Source: a virus
Direction: 5' to 3' (one strand)
Length of the DNA: 56,427 bases
Virus record (IMG/VR): IMGVR_UViG_3300005529_000043
Coordinates: 1-56,427 of that record
The notes under the pieces are model-generated. The model worked only from the letters and a program-made list of their open reading frames with translations. It did no database searches and had not been told where the DNA came from. Shown one piece after another: positions 4,869 to 32,078 of the stretch. Each line of letters starts with the position of its first letter. The first letter of the stretch is position 1. A program made the translations under genes and the position numbers.

Positions 4869-5534
4869 TTAGACGGAGCCGGACGACTCGGTGCGAGAAT
4901 TCAGCATTTGGTTATCAAAGAGGCCCTCGTAGAATGCCTTGTTCTGCGTAAGGACCTCCGCGGCCTGCTGCTGCGTGAGGAGGTAAGCTTTCTCTTCGGG
5001 AAGAAGCTGCTCTAAGGTGTATTCAGCGGCAAGTTGATGGATCGCGCTCTCCGACTGATACGGCATCGTGTCGTACGTCGCGTCGGGAATTGTCGAGCCG
5101 AACATCTTCGGCTGACGCGGGTAGTAGCCCAGCGTAATCGTCAGGCCCGAGGGCAGCGTGTTAACTTTCTGGTTCTCGAAGAAAATCGAAGGCGACGTGT
5201 TGGACGCGAGACAATAGGGATTCGTCTTTCGCGTACCGATTTCTTCCGTGTCGATGTACGAGAGAGGATACTCCACCCCATTGTTGACGTACACTGCGTC
5301 GTTGGCGTAGGCCGTGAAGTCGGACGGGAGCGACGCTCCGTCGGCGATAGAAATGTACTTTCTAAAATCCGATTCGTTAGCGATGACGTAGGTCCTCCAG
5401 ACGTAGTCGCGAGCGTACTCTACGTTCGCGTCAATCAGGGCGTCGTCGTATTGAATGTCCTGCGCGAAGGCCATGAGGAGGGTCTTAACTTTCGCGCGAC
5501 GCTGACCCTTGTTATAAAGGCTTTGAGCTGGCAT
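4869..5534 (-). CDS. adaptor-like head-tail connector protein, copy 3 of 5
   Basis: A 221-residue protein. N-terminal helices (residues 1-60) are followed by a LPSDFTAY turn near residue 70, a beta-like centre containing GYYPRQP, and C-terminal helices rich in Gln/Glu/Leu. It has the same turn as the neighbouring copies. It is probably part of the head-tail connector stack. No catalytic residues or signal peptide are visible. Confidence 0.6.
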   Translation of the reverse strand: MPAQSLYNKGQRRAKVKTLLMAFAQDIQYDDALIDANVEYARDYVWRTYVIANESDFRKYISIADGASLPSDFTAYANDAVYVNNGVEYPLSYIDTEEIGTRKTNPYCLASNTSPSIFFENQKVNTLPSGLTITLGYYPRQPKMFGSTIPDATYDTMPYQSESAIHQLAAEYTLEQLLPEEKAYLLTQQQAAEVLTQNKAFYEGLFDNQMLNSRTESSGSV

Positions 5535-7366: not shown

Positions 7367-8581
7367 TTAGTTGGGGTTCTTCAGGATCGCGTGCGAGGTC
7401 GCAAAGCGAGCTTCGACGCCATAGCGCGAGCTGAGCGCGATCGAGTGACCGGCCTGACGCGGGAGCGAGGTGTCTTTCACCTCCATGAAGTTCGGACCGA
7501 ACTGGCGGAGCCAGATGAACTTCGGATCGACGACCAGGATGCCGTGCTTATACGGCGCGACCTCCCAGAACTCCTTCTCGAGCATTACGAGAATCTTGAA
7601 GTTCCCGAAGAGCGTGTACTGGGCGATGTCAATGCCGTAGGCTTGACGGCCCATCTGAAGCACGCGGACCTTGTCCTTTACGAACTGGTTCAAGTCGAGC
7701 GCGGCATCCGGACCGAACAAGCCGATCTTCGTGGAGCTACCCGAATACTTGTTGTTCCAGACGGCCGTGCGAAGGAACGTGTCGAACTTCGACTCCGTAA
7801 GGGAACCCGAGAACGTTTGCACGTTGCCAGGATCGACGGTGTTGATGACGCCACGCGTACCGCGCAGAGTACCAGTAAAGGACCCGTTGACGCTGGCCTG
7901 GGTATATCCAGTCGCAACGAAGTATTGTCCGAAGAGGACGTTGCGCTCCATATCGCAGCGGAACTGCGTGATGGCCGCCTCTTTGTCCATCTGGAACTTA
8001 TTGCCGTAGTACGTCGGCGAGTACATCATTTCCTCGGTGATGTCGACCGAATAGGACGTCGAGGTAATGCTGTTGCTCTTGAAGGTCGGGCGCGTACCGC
8101 GGGCATCCGGGTAGTAGCCGCCTTCCACGAGGATGTTCCCACAGGAGACGAGAGTGTAAGGACCCGTGACCGCAGCGATATTGCTTCCCGTCGGGAAAAG
8201 CATGAGCGTCACCGTGGACGTGGTGCTCGTGCGGCTTACGACTGCGTGCGTGACAAAATACTGTCCGCTGGTAGCCTCGAAGAATGCGTCGCCAACGACG
8301 ACGGTGGGCGAAGAGACGATGACGTTCTCCGTCGGATTGCCTCCGACGATCGAAGCGGTCACGACGTTCGTGCCGTAGTCATACTGTTGTTCCTGCCACT
8401 CGAAGGTCGTTTGGCTGGTTGGCTTCAGCCGGCCTTTGGTCTGGGACAGGAACGAGGTTAAAGGGGAGGACTCACGATCGTAAGTCGTGACGTCTCGGGC
8501 AACTTCACGAATGAGGTCGTTGCCACCGAGAGAAAACGTGCCAACCGTCGACACGCTGGGCGTGCCAATAAAATTAGCCAT
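7367..8581 (-). CDS. major capsid protein, SU10/DUF5309-like HK97 fold
   Basis: A 404-residue protein. The N-terminal arm carries the YDRESSPLTSFLSQTKG pattern typical of SU10/DUF5309-type capsid proteins (Pro followed by Leu-Thr-Ser just after the arm). Next come a P-domain-like centre (EWQEQQYDYG) and many short beta segments. The C-terminal half contains helix-rich A-domain-like stretches such as TKIGLFGPDAALDLNQFVKD. Length suits a full-length coat protein with no N-terminal scaffold fusion, and a separate scaffold gene lies directly upstream. A strong terminator follows it. Confidence 0.85.
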   Translation of the reverse strand: MANFIGTPSVSTVGTFSLGGNDLIREVARDVTTYDRESSPLTSFLSQTKGRLKPTSQTTFEWQEQQYDYGTNVVTASIVGGNPTENVIVSSPTVVVGDAFFEATSGQYFVTHAVVSRTSTTSTVTLMLFPTGSNIAAVTGPYTLVSCGNILVEGGYYPDARGTRPTFKSNSITSTSYSVDITEEMMYSPTYYGNKFQMDKEAAITQFRCDMERNVLFGQYFVATGYTQASVNGSFTGTLRGTRGVINTVDPGNVQTFSGSLTESKFDTFLRTAVWNNKYSGSSTKIGLFGPDAALDLNQFVKDKVRVLQMGRQAYGIDIAQYTLFGNFKILVMLEKEFWEVAPYKHGILVVDPKFIWLRQFGPNFMEVKDTSLPRQAGHSIALSSRYGVEARFATSHAILKNPN

Positions 8582-14083: not shown

Positions 14084-14148
14084 GCAGGGAAGAGAAGGAC
14101 GGGAGGGAAAATTGGAAGCAGACTATCGGCGGTCTGCCAGCGCACTCG

Positions 14149-14221
14149 TAACGGGGACGGGATTCGAACCCGTGACCTTCGGCTTATGAGGCCGACGAGC
14201 TGGCCGCTGCTCTACCCCGCA
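14149..14221 (-). tRNA. tRNA-Met (CAU), initiator-like features
   Basis: A complete cloverleaf is visible on the minus strand: acceptor TGCGGGG/CCCCGTT, D-stem GAGC/GCTC, anticodon stem TCGGC/GCCGA with loop CTCATAA, five-base variable region AGGTC, T-stem ACGGG/CCCGT with loop TTCGAAT, discriminator A. No CCA is encoded. Positions 1 and 72 are T and T, unpaired, as in initiator tRNAs. The anticodon loop and D-arm flank (GCTCGTC) also match initiator tRNA. Only two of the three initiator G-C pairs are in G:C orientation (third is C:G). It could also be an elongator or Ile-CAU tRNA. Confidence 0.9.
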
Positions 14222-15055: not shown

Positions 15056-15264
15056 TCTGGGTCTTGCTTGTTGATAGTGACGCCTTTCTTATTGGCTTTG
15101 AGGACGTAGCGTTTCGTCGTCCCCAGATCGCCCTGCGTCGTATGTGTGATAGCTATTTCTGTGGCGTCTTCGAAAATATATTCGTGACGCCCGATCCTGA
15201 GCCGCACCTGCGCTAAGCGTTTAAACGGCCCATATCGATGCTCGTCCGTAGACAGTCTGCTCAT
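15052..15264 (-). CDS. small basic protein after large terminase
   Basis: A 70-residue protein with many strand-like segments (AQVRLRIGRHEYIFEDATEI) and a basic C-terminus. It overlaps the 3' end of the large terminase gene by 44 bases in another frame and overlaps the next gene by four bases. No family recognised. Coupling at both ends supports it as a real gene. Confidence 0.55.
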   Translation of the reverse strand: MSRLSTDEHRYGPFKRLAQVRLRIGRHEYIFEDATEIAITHTTQGDLGTTKRYVLKANKKGVTINKQDPE

Positions 15265-16825
15265 AAATTCTTTCGTAGGCTCCTTCGGCGCGCGGGCTGT
15301 TGTACCCAGCCCCGTAGCTCGACTCCGGCGGCACGTAGTCGGAGCGGCCGGCAGCCATATAGAGATAGCGAAGCGCGTCCGATTCGTCGTCGCCTTCGCC
15401 CGGAGGATATTCCCCCGTGGTCTTTTTCACGTCTTCCGGCCGACGATCGTCATGCTGGAGCTTTCTAATGCTACTCCAGAGAAAATGAAGATCATCGAAA
15501 ATTCGAATCTTCGGTTTCTTCTTGAGCCGCGTGACGACATTGCCGTCCCGATCGCGGTCCTCCTCCTGCTCGTAATGGAATCCTTCCAGGAGTGCCTGCC
15601 ATCCAGCGATTCGGTCGTTGTTGGCTTTTAAGAGGCGGAAGCTCCCGATCTCGTCCTCGGCGTTGTAAATCTCACCGGGTGTGCGATTCCCCTCGAGAGA
15701 ACCGTCCGTTTTCCACATCGAAGGATCGCCGACCGCGACGAGGAACTTATCTAATTCGAATCCCGTCTGGGCGATCCGGTGCGCGATCCCTTCTTTATTC
15801 TGGAGTGGGGAGCGCCGGACCGCACTATAATCCATCCCGACCCATAGGGTGCCATCGAAATCGACGCGAGCGGCGATCGCCGCGCACGGGTGGGCGTAGC
15901 CCTGGTCGACGGCAAGGAATGAGTTCCATTCCTTCGGCATTTCGAACCGCCTGACGAGGTGGACGTCGGGAACGAGGTCGTAGAACTGACCTTCGAAAAC
16001 ATCCCAGTGGCCGTAGAAATAAGCGTCGCGCAGCTTGGGCGGCTTTTTGTACAGCGCGTCCAGGTACTGCGCGGGGAGGGTCGGGTTGTCGATCGGAAGG
16101 GCCTGAATAAAATAGTGCCCTTTACTGACGTACCCCGTCTCCGGATTCTTGCGCGGTTTATCGCGTTTATCCGGGTCTACGAAACGGCGACGTACCCACG
16201 CAGCGCCAACGCCGGTAGGATTTGTAGCGCAAAGTATTGGAGAGTGTTCGATGCCTGGCCAGCGCAAGCGTGTCGCAAGAAAGTCGTACTCAGACTCTTC
16301 AATCTCGGTGACTTCATCAATCGCCGCCATCGCGAACTCGACGGATTTGTACTTATCGGGATCATCTAAATTTCGGAACTGAATAATACCGCCCCCATAC
16401 TCGGGGTAGAGGCGGTATTCGTTGGACTTGCCGTGAAAATACCCGAGCCACTTGGGGAAGTGCCGCTCGATTTCTTTTAGGTGCCGATCCTCGATGGCCT
16501 TATACGTCGAGCAGAAAAGACCAACGCGCACATTCATGTGGCCTTCGGCGGCACGATCGAGAAGGAACTTTACGCAAGCCCAGCGCAGAATCCACGACTT
16601 CCCCGAACCCATACTGCCGCCGTACAGCACGGCGTCGTACATATCCATCGCGCGCAGGAACTCGACCTGCTTCGGAAGGACGATCCGTTCGCCGGGCTTG
16701 ATCTCGTATTTCGTTCCGCCTGAATCGCGAACGAAGAGCGAGATCTTTTTTGTATTGTAGAGCGGCCAGACGAGAGACGCTAAATCAACGTTCGTCTCGC
16801 TGGTCTTCGGATTGAGAATTATCAT
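15221..16825 (-). CDS. terL: terminase large subunit (packaging ATPase and nuclease)
   Basis: A 534-residue protein that powers DNA translocation into the procapsid and cuts genome ends. ATPase domain: Walker A GGSMGSGKS at residues 69-77, Walker B FAMAAIDEV at 164-172 with Asp170-Glu171, and coupling motif CATNP at 199-203. RNase H-like nuclease domain: AVDQGY (Asp307), VGDPSMW (Asp367) and the late GDDESDALRYL motif supply the metal-binding acidic residues. All key residues look intact and the length is typical. It overlaps the probable small terminase by 41 bases and lies upstream of portal. Confidence 0.95.
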   Translation of the reverse strand: MIILNPKTSETNVDLASLVWPLYNTKKISLFVRDSGGTKYEIKPGERIVLPKQVEFLRAMDMYDAVLYGGSMGSGKSWILRWACVKFLLDRAAEGHMNVRVGLFCSTYKAIEDRHLKEIERHFPKWLGYFHGKSNEYRLYPEYGGGIIQFRNLDDPDKYKSVEFAMAAIDEVTEIEESEYDFLATRLRWPGIEHSPILCATNPTGVGAAWVRRRFVDPDKRDKPRKNPETGYVSKGHYFIQALPIDNPTLPAQYLDALYKKPPKLRDAYFYGHWDVFEGQFYDLVPDVHLVRRFEMPKEWNSFLAVDQGYAHPCAAIAARVDFDGTLWVGMDYSAVRRSPLQNKEGIAHRIAQTGFELDKFLVAVGDPSMWKTDGSLEGNRTPGEIYNAEDEIGSFRLLKANNDRIAGWQALLEGFHYEQEEDRDRDGNVVTRLKKKPKIRIFDDLHFLWSSIRKLQHDDRRPEDVKKTTGEYPPGEGDDESDALRYLYMAAGRSDYVPPESSYGAGYNSPRAEGAYERIYEQTVYGRASIWAV

Positions 16826-18992: not shown

Positions 18993-19349
18993 TTGAATAG
19001 GTACGAGCGTGCAGCTCGAAGCAGGTCGCGGGTCGCTCGGCGGAAGGAAGAGTTGCGAAGGATACGGGCCGCGTTCTATCGCGCCTGCCCGTGCGGCGAA
19101 AGCGATCCTGCCTGCCTCGACTTCCACCACAAGGACCCCAGCCTCAAAGTCGCCCCGATCTCCGACATGATAACCAACTGCGTTTCGACGGAAGCGTTCC
19201 TCGCGGAGCTGAGTAAATGCGTCTGCATTTGCTCGAACTGTCATCGGAAGCACGAAGCGGAAAAGCGGGGATACCGAACGGCCGACTACACACTTAAAAC
19301 CGAATTCGAGTCCGAGAGTTTCGATCACGAAAGCGAGGTGGAAGAGTAA
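18993..19349 (+). CDS. HNH endonuclease-like protein
   Basis: A 118-residue protein. A basic N-terminal helix precedes ACPCGES, then DFHHKDP and, after a helix, CVCICSNCHRKH. The CxC/CxxC zinc pairs and the HH and NCHRKH histidines form the beta-beta-alpha-metal fold of HNH nucleases. It could be a packaging-associated nuclease or a homing-type enzyme; it is the first gene rightward of the control region. A T-run and a tRNA-like element follow its stop. Confidence 0.75.
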   Translation: MNRYERAARSRSRVARRKEELRRIRAAFYRACPCGESDPACLDFHHKDPSLKVAPISDMITNCVSTEAFLAELSKCVCICSNCHRKHEAEKRGYRTADYTLKTEFESESFDHESEVEE

Positions 19350-19360
19350 CGTTTTTTTTG

Positions 19361-19462
19361 GGCGCCGTAGCTCAGTGGGTTAGAGCGTCCAGGGCCTCTG
19401 AGGGGATGGAATCGCCTCACGCCACTGGAAGGCCGCGGGTTCAAGTCCCGTCGGTGCCCCCA
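19361..19462 (+). tRNA. 102-nt tRNA-like gene with CCA and a 32-nt anticodon loop
   Basis: Acceptor GGCGCCG/CGGTGCC, T8-A9, D-stem GCTC/GAGC with loop AGTGGGTTA, anticodon stem TCCAG/CTGGA, variable AGGCC, T-stem GCGGG/CCCGT with loop TTCAAGT, discriminator C and an encoded CCA. All arms are canonical except the anticodon loop. It has 32 bases (19393-19424) instead of seven and can itself fold: GGC with GCC and TGAGG with CCTCA. No anticodon can be assigned. A 25-nt insertion, a processed intron, or a non-decoding tRNA mimic are possible. Group I introns are far larger. Confidence 0.75.
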
Positions 19463-19551
19463 GCCATAAGAAGAACGGAAGTAGTTCACGCCAACTCTCA
19501 CCGGTGTGAGCATCAGTATGCAACACTCAACCCAAGGTCTCTCACCTTGGT

Positions 19552-19634
19552 GCGGGCGCCTGAAGGCAAGGCGAGGCACAGGGTTTTTCTTTCATGTTTC
19601 CCTGTACAAGCGGGTTCGATCCCCGCCGCTCGTG
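19552..19634 (+). tRNA. 83-nt tRNA-like element with 16-nt anticodon loop
   Basis: Acceptor GCGGGCG pairs fully with CGCTCGT (two G-T pairs). T-arm GCGGG-TTCGATC-CCCGC is perfect. The anticodon-position stem CAGGG/CCCTG closes a 16-base loop of mostly T. The D-arm is weak (CCT/AGG) and a six-base linker precedes the anticodon stem. No CCA is encoded. It ends two bases before the ATG of the next gene. Hairpins CTCAC/GTGAG and CCAAGGT/ACCTTGG lie just upstream (19497-19551). Confidence 0.55.
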
Positions 19635-19636
19635 CG

Positions 19637-19855
19637 ATGAAAGTTATACGAATTAAGGGCTTAAAGAAGAAGCGGCCGCTCCGGTGGCTCGTGACGATCC
19701 CAGAGAACCCGATGCTAACGAAAGCCATCCAGGCGACGCAGCGGACGGCGTATCGCAGGGGATACTCGCGCAAACAATCGACACAGTTCGCGCTGAACTT
19801 ATTTAGCTCCGAAGTGCGGCGCGCGCTCGGGGCGCTGGAGCCAGCGACCAGCTAA
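19637..19855 (+). CDS. small basic protein after the tRNA-like pair
   Basis: A 72-residue Lys/Arg-rich protein (MKVIRIKGLKKKRPLRWLV, then RRGYSRKQSTQFALNLF). The ATG at 19637 is preferred over an in-frame start at 19358, because the longer version would translate through two RNA elements. The compact basic character suggests RNA or DNA binding, but no family is recognised. Confidence 0.5.
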   Translation: MKVIRIKGLKKKRPLRWLVTIPENPMLTKAIQATQRTAYRRGYSRKQSTQFALNLFSSEVRRALGALEPATS

Positions 19856-19920: not shown

Positions 19921-19973
19921 GGGGTGCAGGCGGATGGGCCGGCGCGGGCGAGGTTCGAGTCCTCGGCACCTCT
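19921..19973 (+). ncRNA. 53-nt acceptor/T-arm mini tRNA-like element
   Basis: GGGGTGC pairs over seven bases with GCACCTC, and CGAGG-TTCGAGT-CCTCG forms a perfect T-arm. Only 21 GC-rich bases lie where D-arm and anticodon arm should be. A separate hairpin AAGCGAA/TTCGCTT (19881-19907) stands just before it. Such an acceptor/T minihelix is the minimal substrate of RNase P and RNase Z, which suggests a processing signal. Confidence 0.55.
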
Positions 19974-20923: not shown

Positions 20924-21427
20924 ATGACAGCACAGTATATCACGACAGCGCTTAAAAGCATTCATCTTTCGAAAGCAGAGTACGATGAGCTCGTAACAAC
21001 GGCACGAACGAGGCTGCGGGAAACAATGTCGGACGTACAGATAACACAGCCACTCGCGGACGGATTCGTTCTTGGCTATTCTATGATCGCCGGCACCGAG
21101 GTCGTGCCGCTGAGATACGCCGATCCGGACCTGATCGCGAGATACTGTGTATTCGAGACTCCGGGCGAGGTTCTGCGAGAGGCGCGGGAGCGCGAAATTC
21201 GCCGCAAAGCCAGCTTGGTGCGGAAGCGGATTTTGAAGGAGGAAGGGTTCGAAGAGTATGAACCCGGCCCGCAAGACCTCGTCTACACGGCCTCGTTTAA
21301 GCGCGGAGAGTGGGCGCCGCTGTGTGGGAGACACGATGGCGTTATTCCCTGGTACGTATTCCCCAGCAGCGCAACACGGGACCGGTTCTTTCGACTCATG
21401 GGGCCGGAACTTAAAGACTTGGTGTGA
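20924..21427 (+). CDS. unknown conserved-looking phage protein
   Basis: A 167-residue soluble protein with a central, strongly charged helix (EVLREAREREIRRKASLVRKR) and an aromatic C-terminus (WYVFPSSATRDRFFRLMG). No motif recognised. It sits between the exonuclease and the HD-domain gene, and overlaps the latter by four bases. Confidence 0.5.
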   Translation: MTAQYITTALKSIHLSKAEYDELVTTARTRLRETMSDVQITQPLADGFVLGYSMIAGTEVVPLRYADPDLIARYCVFETPGEVLREAREREIRRKASLVRKRILKEEGFEEYEPGPQDLVYTASFKRGEWAPLCGRHDGVIPWYVFPSSATRDRFFRLMGPELKDLV

Positions 21428-21951
21428 CGGAGGGATTTTATCGCGCGATCTTTTCGCGGAATTCTGTAAAATACTGGGATGAACTTTGCGCGGTCGTCCC
21501 AGACCTCAGACCCAACTTCGGAGTGCCGCAGTCGAAAGAGTGGCACCCGGAAGGCGCCGTCCATATCCATATCTGCAAAGTTATCGATGCGGCCGCGGAA
21601 CCTTTAATTCGAAGTTCCGCGCCGCTCGACCGATGCGATTATACATTCGTACTGGCCGCCCTATTCCACGACATCGGGAAGGCCGCGACGCATGAGTTTA
21701 AAAACGGCATTCACAGCTTCCGCGACCACGAAACGAAGTCCGTCGAGATACTGCAAGACTATCACGGGCTTATCTACGGACTCGGAGTAAAGCGGTGGAG
21801 GCTCGAGGCAATCGTACGGGACCACATGCGCGCCCACAGATATATCGACGGGCGCATGACAAAGCGAAGTAAGCGGCTGGAATTTATCCAGCTCCCGCAT
21901 TACGAGGACCTTCTCAAATTCGCAAAATACGACAGACAAGGAAAGCTTTAA
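21424..21951 (+). CDS. HD-domain hydrolase resembling the CCA-enzyme HD region
   Basis: A 175-residue protein with the metal-binding HD signature: HPEGAVHIH (His41), AALFHDIGKAATH (His82-Asp83), FRDHETKS and a later Asp-rich region. The HPEG...HDIGK...F..HE..S pattern is that of the HD domain attached to bacterial tRNA nucleotidyltransferases and related nucleotidases. The nucleotidyltransferase half is absent. A phosphohydrolase acting on nucleotides or RNA 2',3'-cyclic ends is plausible. Its closeness to the tRNA-like elements is noted but proves nothing. Confidence 0.75.
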   Translation: MTEGFYRAIFSRNSVKYWDELCAVVPDLRPNFGVPQSKEWHPEGAVHIHICKVIDAAAEPLIRSSAPLDRCDYTFVLAALFHDIGKAATHEFKNGIHSFRDHETKSVEILQDYHGLIYGLGVKRWRLEAIVRDHMRAHRYIDGRMTKRSKRLEFIQLPHYEDLLKFAKYDRQGKL

Positions 21952-26747: not shown

Positions 26748-26832
26748 GGGAGTAGCGTCGTGCTACGGTATGCCTATAAAGGCCAATAGGGCCGGGTTTA
26801 CGCCGTAAAGGGTTCAAATCCCTTTACTCTCT
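26748..26832 (+). tRNA. 85-nt tRNA-like element, possibly class II
   Basis: Acceptor GGGAGTA pairs perfectly with TACTCTC (one G-T). T-arm AAGGG-TTCAAAT-CCCTT is perfect and can extend. Length and a short extra arm (CGG/CCG) suit a class II tRNA. The anticodon-position stem CCTAT/ATAGG has an eight-base loop AAAGGCCA; an alternative GCC/GGC hairpin competes. No secure anticodon. A leader motif begins ten bases later. Confidence 0.55.
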
Positions 26833-29446: not shown

Positions 29447-29648
29447 CTGCAAATATCTCGAAAGAAAAGCGGTTCCCGAATCGGCCCTAACGCTCTTCGA
29501 TGGGCCGGGGGGCCGCATATACTTCGTGCGGGAAGACGGGTTCGAATACGAAAAACCGATGCTGTACTTTCGCCTCCCGGACGGAACGATTCGCGCCTTA
29601 TCGCTACTCGGCGAGTTTCGCGCTATGCGAACCGCTCTTTCCAGTTAG
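29439..29648 (+). CDS. small protein of the amidoligase cluster
   Basis: A 69-residue protein with strand-like segments (GGRIYFVREDGFEYEKPMLY) and no recognised family. It overlaps the amidotransferase stop by eight bases, so it is probably co-translated and may belong to the same pathway. Confidence 0.5.
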   Translation: MNNCKYLERKAVPESALTLFDGPGGRIYFVREDGFEYEKPMLYFRLPDGTIRALSLLGEFRAMRTALSS

Positions 29649-29663
29649 CACACACAACCCTTA

Positions 29664-29714
29664 ACCCTGCCGTGAGACGGTCACACTACGAGAGTTCGAA
29701 TCTCTCGCCGGGTT
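29664..29714 (+). ncRNA. 51-nt mini tRNA-like element with one hairpin arm
   Basis: ACCCTGC pairs with GCCGGGT (six of seven). GAGAG-TTCGAAT-CTCTC is a perfect T-arm. Between them is one hairpin GTGA/TCAC with five loop bases; D- and anticodon arms are missing. It begins 15 bases past a stop codon and precedes GGAGGGACAAACGATG at the next gene. Confidence 0.55.
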
Positions 29715-29749: not shown

Positions 29750-30268
29750 ATGCAACTACCGAGATTAAAGGCGTCCGACATGTATCTTTATGAGGAGCAG
29801 GACGCAACTCATGAGATAGCACAGACATTCCGCTATCTTGCGGAGCCTCAAGAAATCGCGAAGGAGCGCGCCTGCGCTATCGCTCAGGCCGTGAACCGTC
29901 ACGATAACCTGATCCGCGCAGTCACTTGTGTGCTGAACTGTATCGAAGGGCACGAAGAAATCAAGCACCCATTCGAAGACTACGAACCGGAGTCGCTCAG
30001 ACAGTTACAGGACATGGTTCGCGATATTCGGGCAGGGGCAGACGACTTGGAGGATATGAGCGGGAACGTTTCCCAGGCCTCACGAACGAACGATAACAAG
30101 CGAACGATCCGGGAACTAACGGAAGCCTTGGAGGCGGCGGTTCAGCGGCTCGTTAGTTTAGATAGACAGCTACTCGCGGAGCTTGGAATTAAATTCGAGA
30201 ACGATTTAGGAGAGATGATTCGCGGACGCGCCGCACTCGCCAAAGCGAAAGGAGAGCAACATGCTTGA
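29750..30268 (+). CDS. helical protein of unknown function
   Basis: A 172-residue, mainly alpha-helical protein with an acidic middle and coiled-coil-like C-terminal half (TIRELTEALEAAVQRLVSLD). GGAGG lies seven bases before the ATG, one of few clear Shine-Dalgarno sequences here. It overlaps the next gene by eight bases. Family not recognised. Confidence 0.5.
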   Translation: MQLPRLKASDMYLYEEQDATHEIAQTFRYLAEPQEIAKERACAIAQAVNRHDNLIRAVTCVLNCIEGHEEIKHPFEDYEPESLRQLQDMVRDIRAGADDLEDMSGNVSQASRTNDNKRTIRELTEALEAAVQRLVSLDRQLLAELGIKFENDLGEMIRGRAALAKAKGEQHA

Positions 30269-30602
30269 CACAACTCGCATCATATCCATCGACCCGGAGA
30301 AACGCAAGCCGTGTGAGGCGTGCTCCGGCACGGGCTGGCTGTTCGCGAGTACGTCGTTTAAGATCGAACGATGCGATGCGTGCGAACAATACACGAACGA
30401 CGCCTACGGTGCATTAGCGTTCGCCGAGGACGTATATATCGAAAGCAAAGGCGAGGTTACCGTTCGCATTTCGGCACAGCTTCAGCGCGGCGAAGCGAGT
30501 AGCTGGTGGTTTTTCGCTAATCCGAAATACGTCTCGGGATTCGTTCTCGCGGTAGCAAAACTGTTCCCGGACTACAATCCCTTATCGGACGAATTCCGCT
30601 AA
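30261..30602 (+). CDS. DnaJ-like zinc-motif phage protein
   Basis: A 113-residue protein with CEACSGTGWLF (residues 18-28) and CDACEQY, a CxxCxGxG...CxxC zinc site as in the DnaJ cysteine-rich region. The second half has a strand-rich segment with SSWWFFANPKYV. Common in accessory phage operons; a folding or RNA role is unproven. Its stop codon is also the first base of a mini tRNA-like element. Confidence 0.6.
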   Translation: MLDTTRIISIDPEKRKPCEACSGTGWLFASTSFKIERCDACEQYTNDAYGALAFAEDVYIESKGEVTVRISAQLQRGEASSWWFFANPKYVSGFVLAVAKLFPDYNPLSDEFR

Positions 30603-30644
30603 CCCCGTTTGGAACATGCGCCGGTTCGATTCCGGCGCGGGGTT
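30602..30644 (+). ncRNA. 43-nt acceptor/T-arm minihelix
   Basis: ACCCCGT pairs perfectly with GCGGGGT (one T-G), GCCGG-TTCGATT-CCGGC is a perfect T-arm, and only 11 bases replace the D- and anticodon arms. It begins on the last base of the preceding stop codon and ends 12 bases before the leader motif CCTAAACGACATG. It is the cleanest minimal member of the series and has the form of a model RNase P substrate. Confidence 0.65.
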
Positions 30645-30655
30645 CTATTTACTAT

Positions 30656-30666
30656 CCTAAACGACA
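30656..30666 (+). promoter_or_regulatory. leader motif CCTAAACGACA, copy 4
   Basis: Exact motif whose last A is the A of the ATG at 30666. Confidence 0.7.
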
Positions 30667-31674: not shown

Positions 31675-31998
31675 ATGCCTAAATACACCGTACATATCTA
31701 TGCGGTCGCAAGGGTTCCCGTTGAGGTCGAGGCCGAGTCGATGGAGGGGGCCATTAAGAAGGCCGAAGAAAAGACGAACCTCTACGATGTTCTGGATAGC
31801 GAGAAGGCGTCGTTTGCAGAGGAAGTAACGGGCTATCTCGTCGATGTCGAAGGCGACGAGGGGTGCGAAAACTCCCGCTACTTTAATACGGACGACCTTA
31901 CCTCGGTTTCCTTCCGCTTTCTGGGTGGCGAGGGTTCGGCCCCGCTTGCGTTCGCCAACGAAGGCGACGGCGAAAACGAAAGATCGTGGGAATCTTAA
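31675..31998 (+). CDS. small acidic protein
   Basis: A 107-residue protein. YTVHIYAVARVPVEVEAESM and AIKKAEE resemble DpnD/PcfM-like small domains (strand-helix pair common in phage). The C-terminus is very acidic. Four bases separate it from the previous gene, and a 72-nt tRNA-like element follows after eight bases. Confidence 0.55.
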   Translation: MPKYTVHIYAVARVPVEVEAESMEGAIKKAEEKTNLYDVLDSEKASFAEEVTGYLVDVEGDEGCENSRYFNTDDLTSVSFRFLGGEGSAPLAFANEGDGENERSWES

Positions 31999-32006
31999 AT
32001 CCCACC

Positions 32007-32078
32007 GGGAGCGACAGGTTGGTGTCGGTCATGCCGCTAAGCGGGGCCGTGAATGGGGTTCGACTCCCCTCGCTTCCA
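32007..32078 (+). tRNA. 72-nt tRNA-like element with remodelled anticodon arm
   Basis: Acceptor GGGAGCG/CGCTTCC pairs at all seven positions, discriminator A. T-arm has four strong pairs, GGGG/CCCC, and loop TTCGACT. D-arm ACA/TGT has a GGTTGG loop. Anticodon-position stem CGGTC/GGCCG is five pairs, but the loop has 14 bases with an inner CCGC-TAA-GCGG hairpin. No seven-base loop, so no anticodon can be read. Length is close to a normal tRNA. Confidence 0.6.

Follow-up and report, generated by a model that had tools for sequence, protein, structure and literature searches.

A probable non-decoding tRNA mimic with an enlarged anticodon loop, one of about seven same-strand tRNA-like elements in a prophage early region

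The window, the whole stretch of 56,427 nt that was analysed, carries a prophage that sits in a 3.47-Mb genome and is marked by genes for the terminase large subunit (15221..16825, minus strand; phrog_2, 2e-28) and a SU10-type major capsid protein (7367..8581, minus strand; PF17236, 5.2e-22), together with a portal gene. Terminase and portal searches of viral_contigs and genome_contigs revealed no close prophage relatives, and among the 80 distant loci brought together by the terminase alignment the sole useful tRNA-like match was a homologue, in the distantly related phage L296, of the element called E6 below. On the plus strand, the stop codon of a gene encoding an HNH endonuclease (18993..19349; phrog_2255, 4e-18) lies 11 nt upstream of the element under study, E1. 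The early region also encodes an HD-domain protein (21424-21951; Pfam HD) that weakly resembles the HD portion of a family of phage tRNA nucleotidyltransferases (phrog_2244, 2e-4). The host has a full tRNA set of its own, including tRNA-Ala(CGC), as well as a tRNA-like gene with the anticodon UUA, which reads the UAA stop codon, and a weak tRNA score of 36.3 bits (G000:C48:15798-15882, L222); this gene is a possible suppressor or degenerate tRNA-Ser.

E1 (19361-19462, plus strand) is a full tRNA cloverleaf with an encoded CCA and a 32-nt anticodon loop. The arms assigned from the sequence are the acceptor stem (19361-19367/19452-19458, 7/7 pairs), the D arm (19370-19386), the anticodon stem (19388-19392/19425-19429, 5/5 pairs), the variable loop (19430-19434) and the T arm (19435-19451, 5/5 pairs, loop TTCAAGT), followed by the discriminator C73 (19459) and CCA (19460-19462). 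The Rfam tRNA model RF00005 matched 19361-19459 with 51.7 bits (gathering 29), the 7-nt anticodon loop being expanded to 32 nt, and ARAGORN called E1 only with introns allowed, as a tRNA-Ala(cgc) of 77 nt plus a 25-nt 'intron'. Within the enlarged loop (19393-19424), GGC/GCC (19393-5/19421-3), TGAGG/CCTCA (19399-403/19415-9) and GAT/ATC form an inner hairpin, with a 5' bulge CTC and a 3' bulge C at TGAGG/CCTCA, that is also present in the minimum free energy (MFE) fold. The D arm was absent from the MFE fold and the overall z-score was only -1.66; it is the tRNA profile, not folding energy, that supports the cloverleaf. A sequence-only reading had described a 102-nt tRNA at this place with an encoded CCA, a 32-nt anticodon loop, otherwise canonical arms and 25 extra loop bases forming a stem of their own, and each of these points was borne out, the boundaries to the base.

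All of the acceptor, D and T arms and the N73-CCA end found in a functional elongator tRNA are present in E1. In addition, G-1 (19360) can pair with C73, and a G-1:C73 pair is a hallmark of bacterial tRNA-His; the host tRNA-His likewise has C73. The stack of acceptor and T arm in E1 is 7+5 bp, or 8+5 bp with G-1:C73, matching the RNase P-type stack of ~12-13 bp with a T loop. E1 occurs once in the genome. BLAST against 50,697 phage records found no close copy, nor was one found in 100 related genomes, where only fragments of ordinary tRNAs matched. An open reading frame (19358-19855) runs through E1 and the neighbouring element E2, in frame with a small gene (19637-19855), and may hide both RNAs from gene finders. 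By manual translation its first 93 residues resemble a translated tRNA (GAVAQWVRAS...GRPRVQVPS), and a protein-coding reading of the E1/E2 region was rejected on that ground, the likely gene start being the ATG at 19637.

A functional elongator tRNA has a seven-nucleotide anticodon loop with U33, either directly or after splicing, and E1 has such a loop in neither way. Keeping k bases from the 5' side of the loop and 7-k bases from its 3' side gives eight joins, and none of the eight created by a single contiguous excision from E1 supplies U33. For calibration, a single search pattern requiring a 45-75-nt interval that separates D and T arms was applied, and every well-formed cloverleaf matching it was used; the great majority of those from genome_contigs were archaeal, and introns in tRNAs are normal in archaea. 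With a stricter requirement for Y32-U33-R37, all 57 of the 57 archaeal long-loop, intron-bearing tRNAs passed, compared to 8/25 long-loop cloverleafs from IMG/VR (a set including E1 and that of Aeromonas phage Aeh1) and 17% of random loops, indicating that the test separates real intron tRNAs from other cloverleafs and that E1 is among the others. Splicing of E1 by a single contiguous excision was thus rejected; a two-step or trans reaction would be compatible with this result. A group I intron was likewise rejected, since such introns measure roughly 200 nt or more and contain a catalytic core, the 25-nt excess is far too short, and no Rfam match to a group I intron reached the gathering level in the window. 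Archaeal-type tRNA introns have a bulge-helix-bulge (BHB) motif where they meet the exons and are removed by a splicing endonuclease.

E1 is one of about seven tRNA-like elements on the same strand of the prophage early region. E2 (19552..19633) consists of an acceptor and T arm, lacks U8, has a possible 16-nt anticodon loop and lies just ahead of the next small gene, whose ATG is at 19637. E3 (19921..19972) is a 52-nt acceptor/T-arm minihelix with no anticodon arm and a weak mascRNA-like match, and E4 (26748..26831) has a 7-bp acceptor and a T arm, with a weak tRNA-Sec-like match. In E5 (29663..29714) an acceptor with 6/7 pairs and a 6-bp T stem are joined by a linker containing a small hairpin, and the tail is CTT; E6 (30601..30644) is a 44-nt acceptor/T-arm minihelix, also with no anticodon arm, belonging to the 'TTGGA' family described below. 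E7 (32007..32078), which ARAGORN called 'tRNA-Leu aag', resembles the tRNA domain of tmRNA (20 bits) and has one T-stem mismatch. All of these are on the plus strand. The contrast case is E0, an ordinary tRNA with a CAT anticodon in the structural region (14148..14221, minus strand). Relative to the preceding stop codon, E1 begins at 11 nt, E5 at about 14 nt, E6 at -2 and E7 at 8 nt (after the gene 31675-31998); E2, E3 and E4 have no nearby stop codon.

The cluster exceeds chance expectation in several counts. In the window, 7 copies of the T-arm motif GGTTCRANYCC stand against 0.69 expected (0/100 shuffles), one in the ordinary tRNA and six in the plus-strand elements between 19 and 32 kb; E5, found by structure, is the seventh early-region element. 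Fully paired T arms (5 bp) followed by fully paired acceptors (7 bp) were found six times on the plus strand, whereas shuffled sequences gave a mean of 0.03 and a maximum of 1. The acceptor of E5 scanned at first, at 29606, is probably spurious and was replaced by that at 29663 (one mismatch); E5 was therefore left out of the strict count, which then stands at five elements with closed acceptor and T arm versus 0.03 expected, and two more elements have one mismatch. The same scan over 394 kb of DNA from the same genome outside the window found closed acceptors only in real tRNAs. Directly after the acceptor or discriminator, all seven elements have C, which is also found at N74 in 39/39 tested host tRNAs, although the full CCA is encoded in only 3/39. 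Several of the elements sharing the transcription unit of E1 likewise lack usable anticodon arms. The sequence-only reading had left a choice between a novel splicing event that returns the loop to seven bases and an RNA with no decoding role; the first branch is not supported, as no join gives U33, and the second was strengthened by these neighbours.

E6 belongs to a widespread, uncatalogued and covarying phage RNA family positioned exactly between consecutive genes. E6 overlaps the stop codon of the gene 30261-30602 and precedes the ATG of the following gene, at 30666. A pattern drawn from E6 and its counterpart in L296 (TTGGA, a T arm and TCT at fixed spacing) was present in 94 IMG/VR contigs, compared to about two expected by our estimate, and both helices were closed at 92 of the 96 matched places. 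The family has a 7-bp acceptor with A1:U44, an 11-nt linker containing TTGGA, a 6-bp T stem, a TTCGANT loop and a CT tail, all of which E6 shares, including the RNase P-type stack (7+6 bp); related copies have a GG-containing variant in place of TTGGA. Across 29 distinct aligned sequences, 99.7% of cells were paired, two-sided changes occupied 125 cells versus 34 in shuffles, and the covariation score was 0.898 versus 0.196 when shuffled. A hold-out model, R2, built without E6 and L296, recovered E6 with 64.2 bits (E=1.6e-13). The median stop codon is 9 nt upstream and the median ATG 20 nt downstream, and both were in range in 80% of 61 cases compared to 0% for the opposite strand and 0% for shifted controls. 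Several contigs have four to six such copies separating successive genes, and minihelices of this type between successive genes were found in L381, L358, L398 and L385; in the first three, the minihelix is mostly followed by a second small hairpin ahead of the start codon. Rfam gave no significant match at E6, only a sub-threshold antisense match, and no description of these elements was found in open-licence papers. In 294 genomes of the class, the family model R1 matched only the genome of origin and one weak site, and with filters off and up to E=10 it gave no match at E1 in the window.

We propose that E1 is a non-decoding tRNA mimic, a reading in which we have good confidence; that it acts as a punctuation signal we rate at slightly under even odds. 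The combined statement, that E1 is a non-decoding tRNA-like RNA of the early transcription unit, one of about seven, processed as tRNA-like punctuation or as a cap, seems to us evenly balanced. What was established directly for E1 is its structure, its position and the failed splice test. RNase P and tRNA 3' processing probably act on E1, which may thereby punctuate or cap mRNAs. In the proposed mechanism, the early-region elements have kept the acceptor/T-arm stack and lost or altered the remainder; host RNase P would cleave 5' of them and the tRNA 3'-processing pathway 3' of them, and these cuts would split the polycistronic phage message into units whose 3' ends are tRNA-like, or would release the mimics as free, stable RNAs. 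RNase P binds the T-arm/acceptor stack and measures from the elbow without needing the D loop (PMC4919913), and its known substrates include tRNA-like RNAs of phages, T4 gene 32 mRNA and polycistronic mRNAs (PMC11143913). The anticodon arm of E1 would accordingly be free to vary because the processing enzymes read the acceptor/T-arm side. In E6-type elements, a D-loop/T-loop elbow could be built from the TTCGANT loop and the conserved linker GG, and the simplest reading is that these elements would mark cutting points or form stable end-caps in the polycistronic messages of phages. Extended to many DNA phages, the idea that operons are punctuated by tRNA-like elements ranging from minihelices to cloverleafs, with host tRNA machinery maturing the message as in mitochondria, is put forward only tentatively.

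The evidence for punctuation is strong for the E6 family and would apply to E1 only by analogy, E1 having in common with its sister elements the transcription unit, orientation, tRNA-like 3' end and a place after a stop codon. Such placement was rejected as a general rule for long-loop cloverleafs, as those in IMG/VR followed stop codons in 12% of cases, showing no enrichment over ordinary tRNAs (15%; shifted control 6%). E1 also retains a D arm and CCA, for which a mere cleavage site has no need. Because E1 is a whole cloverleaf outside the E6 family and its long-loop kin are not especially near stops, we hold the mimic more confidently than the punctuation.

Long-loop cloverleafs are common in phages, where they probably comprise several kinds, and elsewhere they often lie in or near tRNA arrays. 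One kind has an inner hairpin followed by ACAGCAA and includes prophage-like loci in Lachnospiraceae (L435, L491, L518); arrays of 110-120-nt cloverleafs in which the hairpin and ACAGCAA replace the anticodon loop were seen in L015, L022, L052, L060/L227, L066, L094, L096 and L097, with Aeh1 (L060/L227) carrying variants of the motif. Another group is marked by CATGGTGAAGGACC, and a Flavobacterium/Fluviicola group (L420, L462, L477, L489, L496) has related cloverleafs with TTTTGAAATTA...GGTCAAT...CTTACTTC. One phage anticodon loop holds a complete tRNA (L017, tRNA-Phe, about 4969-5117), and others hold an acceptor/T-arm minihelix (L038, 2.2-5.2 kb; L087, about 450-570; L036, about 6.3 kb, on the opposite strand). 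In these four loci the loops have CT...AA ends and would become normal on removal of the insert, which suggests that the inserts may be introns that RNase P and RNase Z could cut out. L115 (6872-7483, minus strand) has four phage tRNA-like genes with long variable-region inserts sharing AGCCTACAAGT-like ends. Annotations of the long-loop elements in cultured Aeromonas phages read tRNA-Val(CAC), tRNA-Leu split into two or tRNA-OTHER; the elements are thus on record, although the open-licence literature found does not recognise them as a class.

This distribution, and that of Aeh1 and its relatives in particular, fits another account, that E1 is a free tRNA mimic, a decoy or a charged non-ribosomal RNA, in which the parts read by synthetase, EF-Tu and the CCA enzyme are kept and the anticodon arm is replaced. 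Such an RNA might, for example, soak up an anticodon nuclease or some other defence directed at tRNAs, and G-1:C73 is a feature through which it could possibly be read by HisRS. The full cloverleaf and the encoded CCA, rare as the latter is in host tRNAs, also favour this account, which leaves unexplained why sister elements lacking D and anticodon arms sit between genes; we consider it unlikely. Slightly less likely still is that E1 is a decaying tRNA gene that took up an insertion in its anticodon loop and is under no selection. The lack of a relative with this loop in the phage records and related genomes searched is consistent with decay, as is the wide variation of loop sequences among phages, but the helices and CCA of E1 are intact, the insert is itself a hairpin, and E1 stands among tRNA-like elements numbering 5-6 where 0.03 were expected. 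That a novel splicing system excises the 25 bases as a small intron, yielding a decoding tRNA-Ala(CGC), appears highly improbable: ARAGORN fits an intron of this length and some phage long-loop tRNAs have intron-like CT...AA loops with a minihelix insert, but no contraction of the E1 loop attains what every archaeal long-loop tRNA attains, the loop proposed by ARAGORN (CACGCCA) has A at position 33, and the host already has this tRNA. A sequencing error may lie behind the extra bases, given the lack of a close copy elsewhere, but 25 bases folding as a hairpin are untypical of errors and the host has its full, separate tRNA set.

If the proposal is correct, phage annotations of 'intron-containing', pseudo- or 'other' tRNAs would include a separate class of tRNA mimics, and the uncatalogued E6-type family would offer a testable handle on the cutting of phage messages by host tRNA-processing enzymes. 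The presence of U33 after contraction is a simple sequence test for telling real tRNA introns from non-decoding tRNA mimics.

Comparison with known systems shows both shared and distinct features. Like archaeal and eukaryal tRNAs with BHB-type introns and bacterial tRNAs with group I introns, E1 is a cloverleaf with an enlarged anticodon loop, but it allows no U33-compatible excision and its 25-nt excess is far below group I intron length. The long-loop 'tRNA-Val/Leu/OTHER' genes of Aeromonas phages Aeh1 and PX29 are likewise phage cloverleafs (about 112-122 nt) with a non-standard anticodon region; the insert of E1 differs in sequence and E1 falls outside the subgroup with a hairpin and ACAGCAA-like motif. 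The tRNA-like domains of mascRNA/menRNA and tmRNA resemble the sister elements in having an acceptor/T-arm minihelix with the rest degenerate, and weak Rfam matches were found at E3 and E7, although these were far under the family thresholds (20 bits versus 42.5 and 47). M3 RNA, C4 RNA, T4 gene 32 mRNA and E. coli operon mRNAs (PMC11143913) are also tRNA-like, with an acceptor/T-arm-type fold in phage or operon transcripts, whereas here the putative substrates for cleavage are an entire cloverleaf (E1) and a covarying family repeated from one gene to the next (E6). Finally, as in mitochondrial tRNA punctuation, where tRNA-shaped elements between genes are excised by tRNA-processing enzymes, tRNA-shaped elements lie between genes in this prophage, but most of them are non-decoding and they belong to a DNA phage of bacteria.
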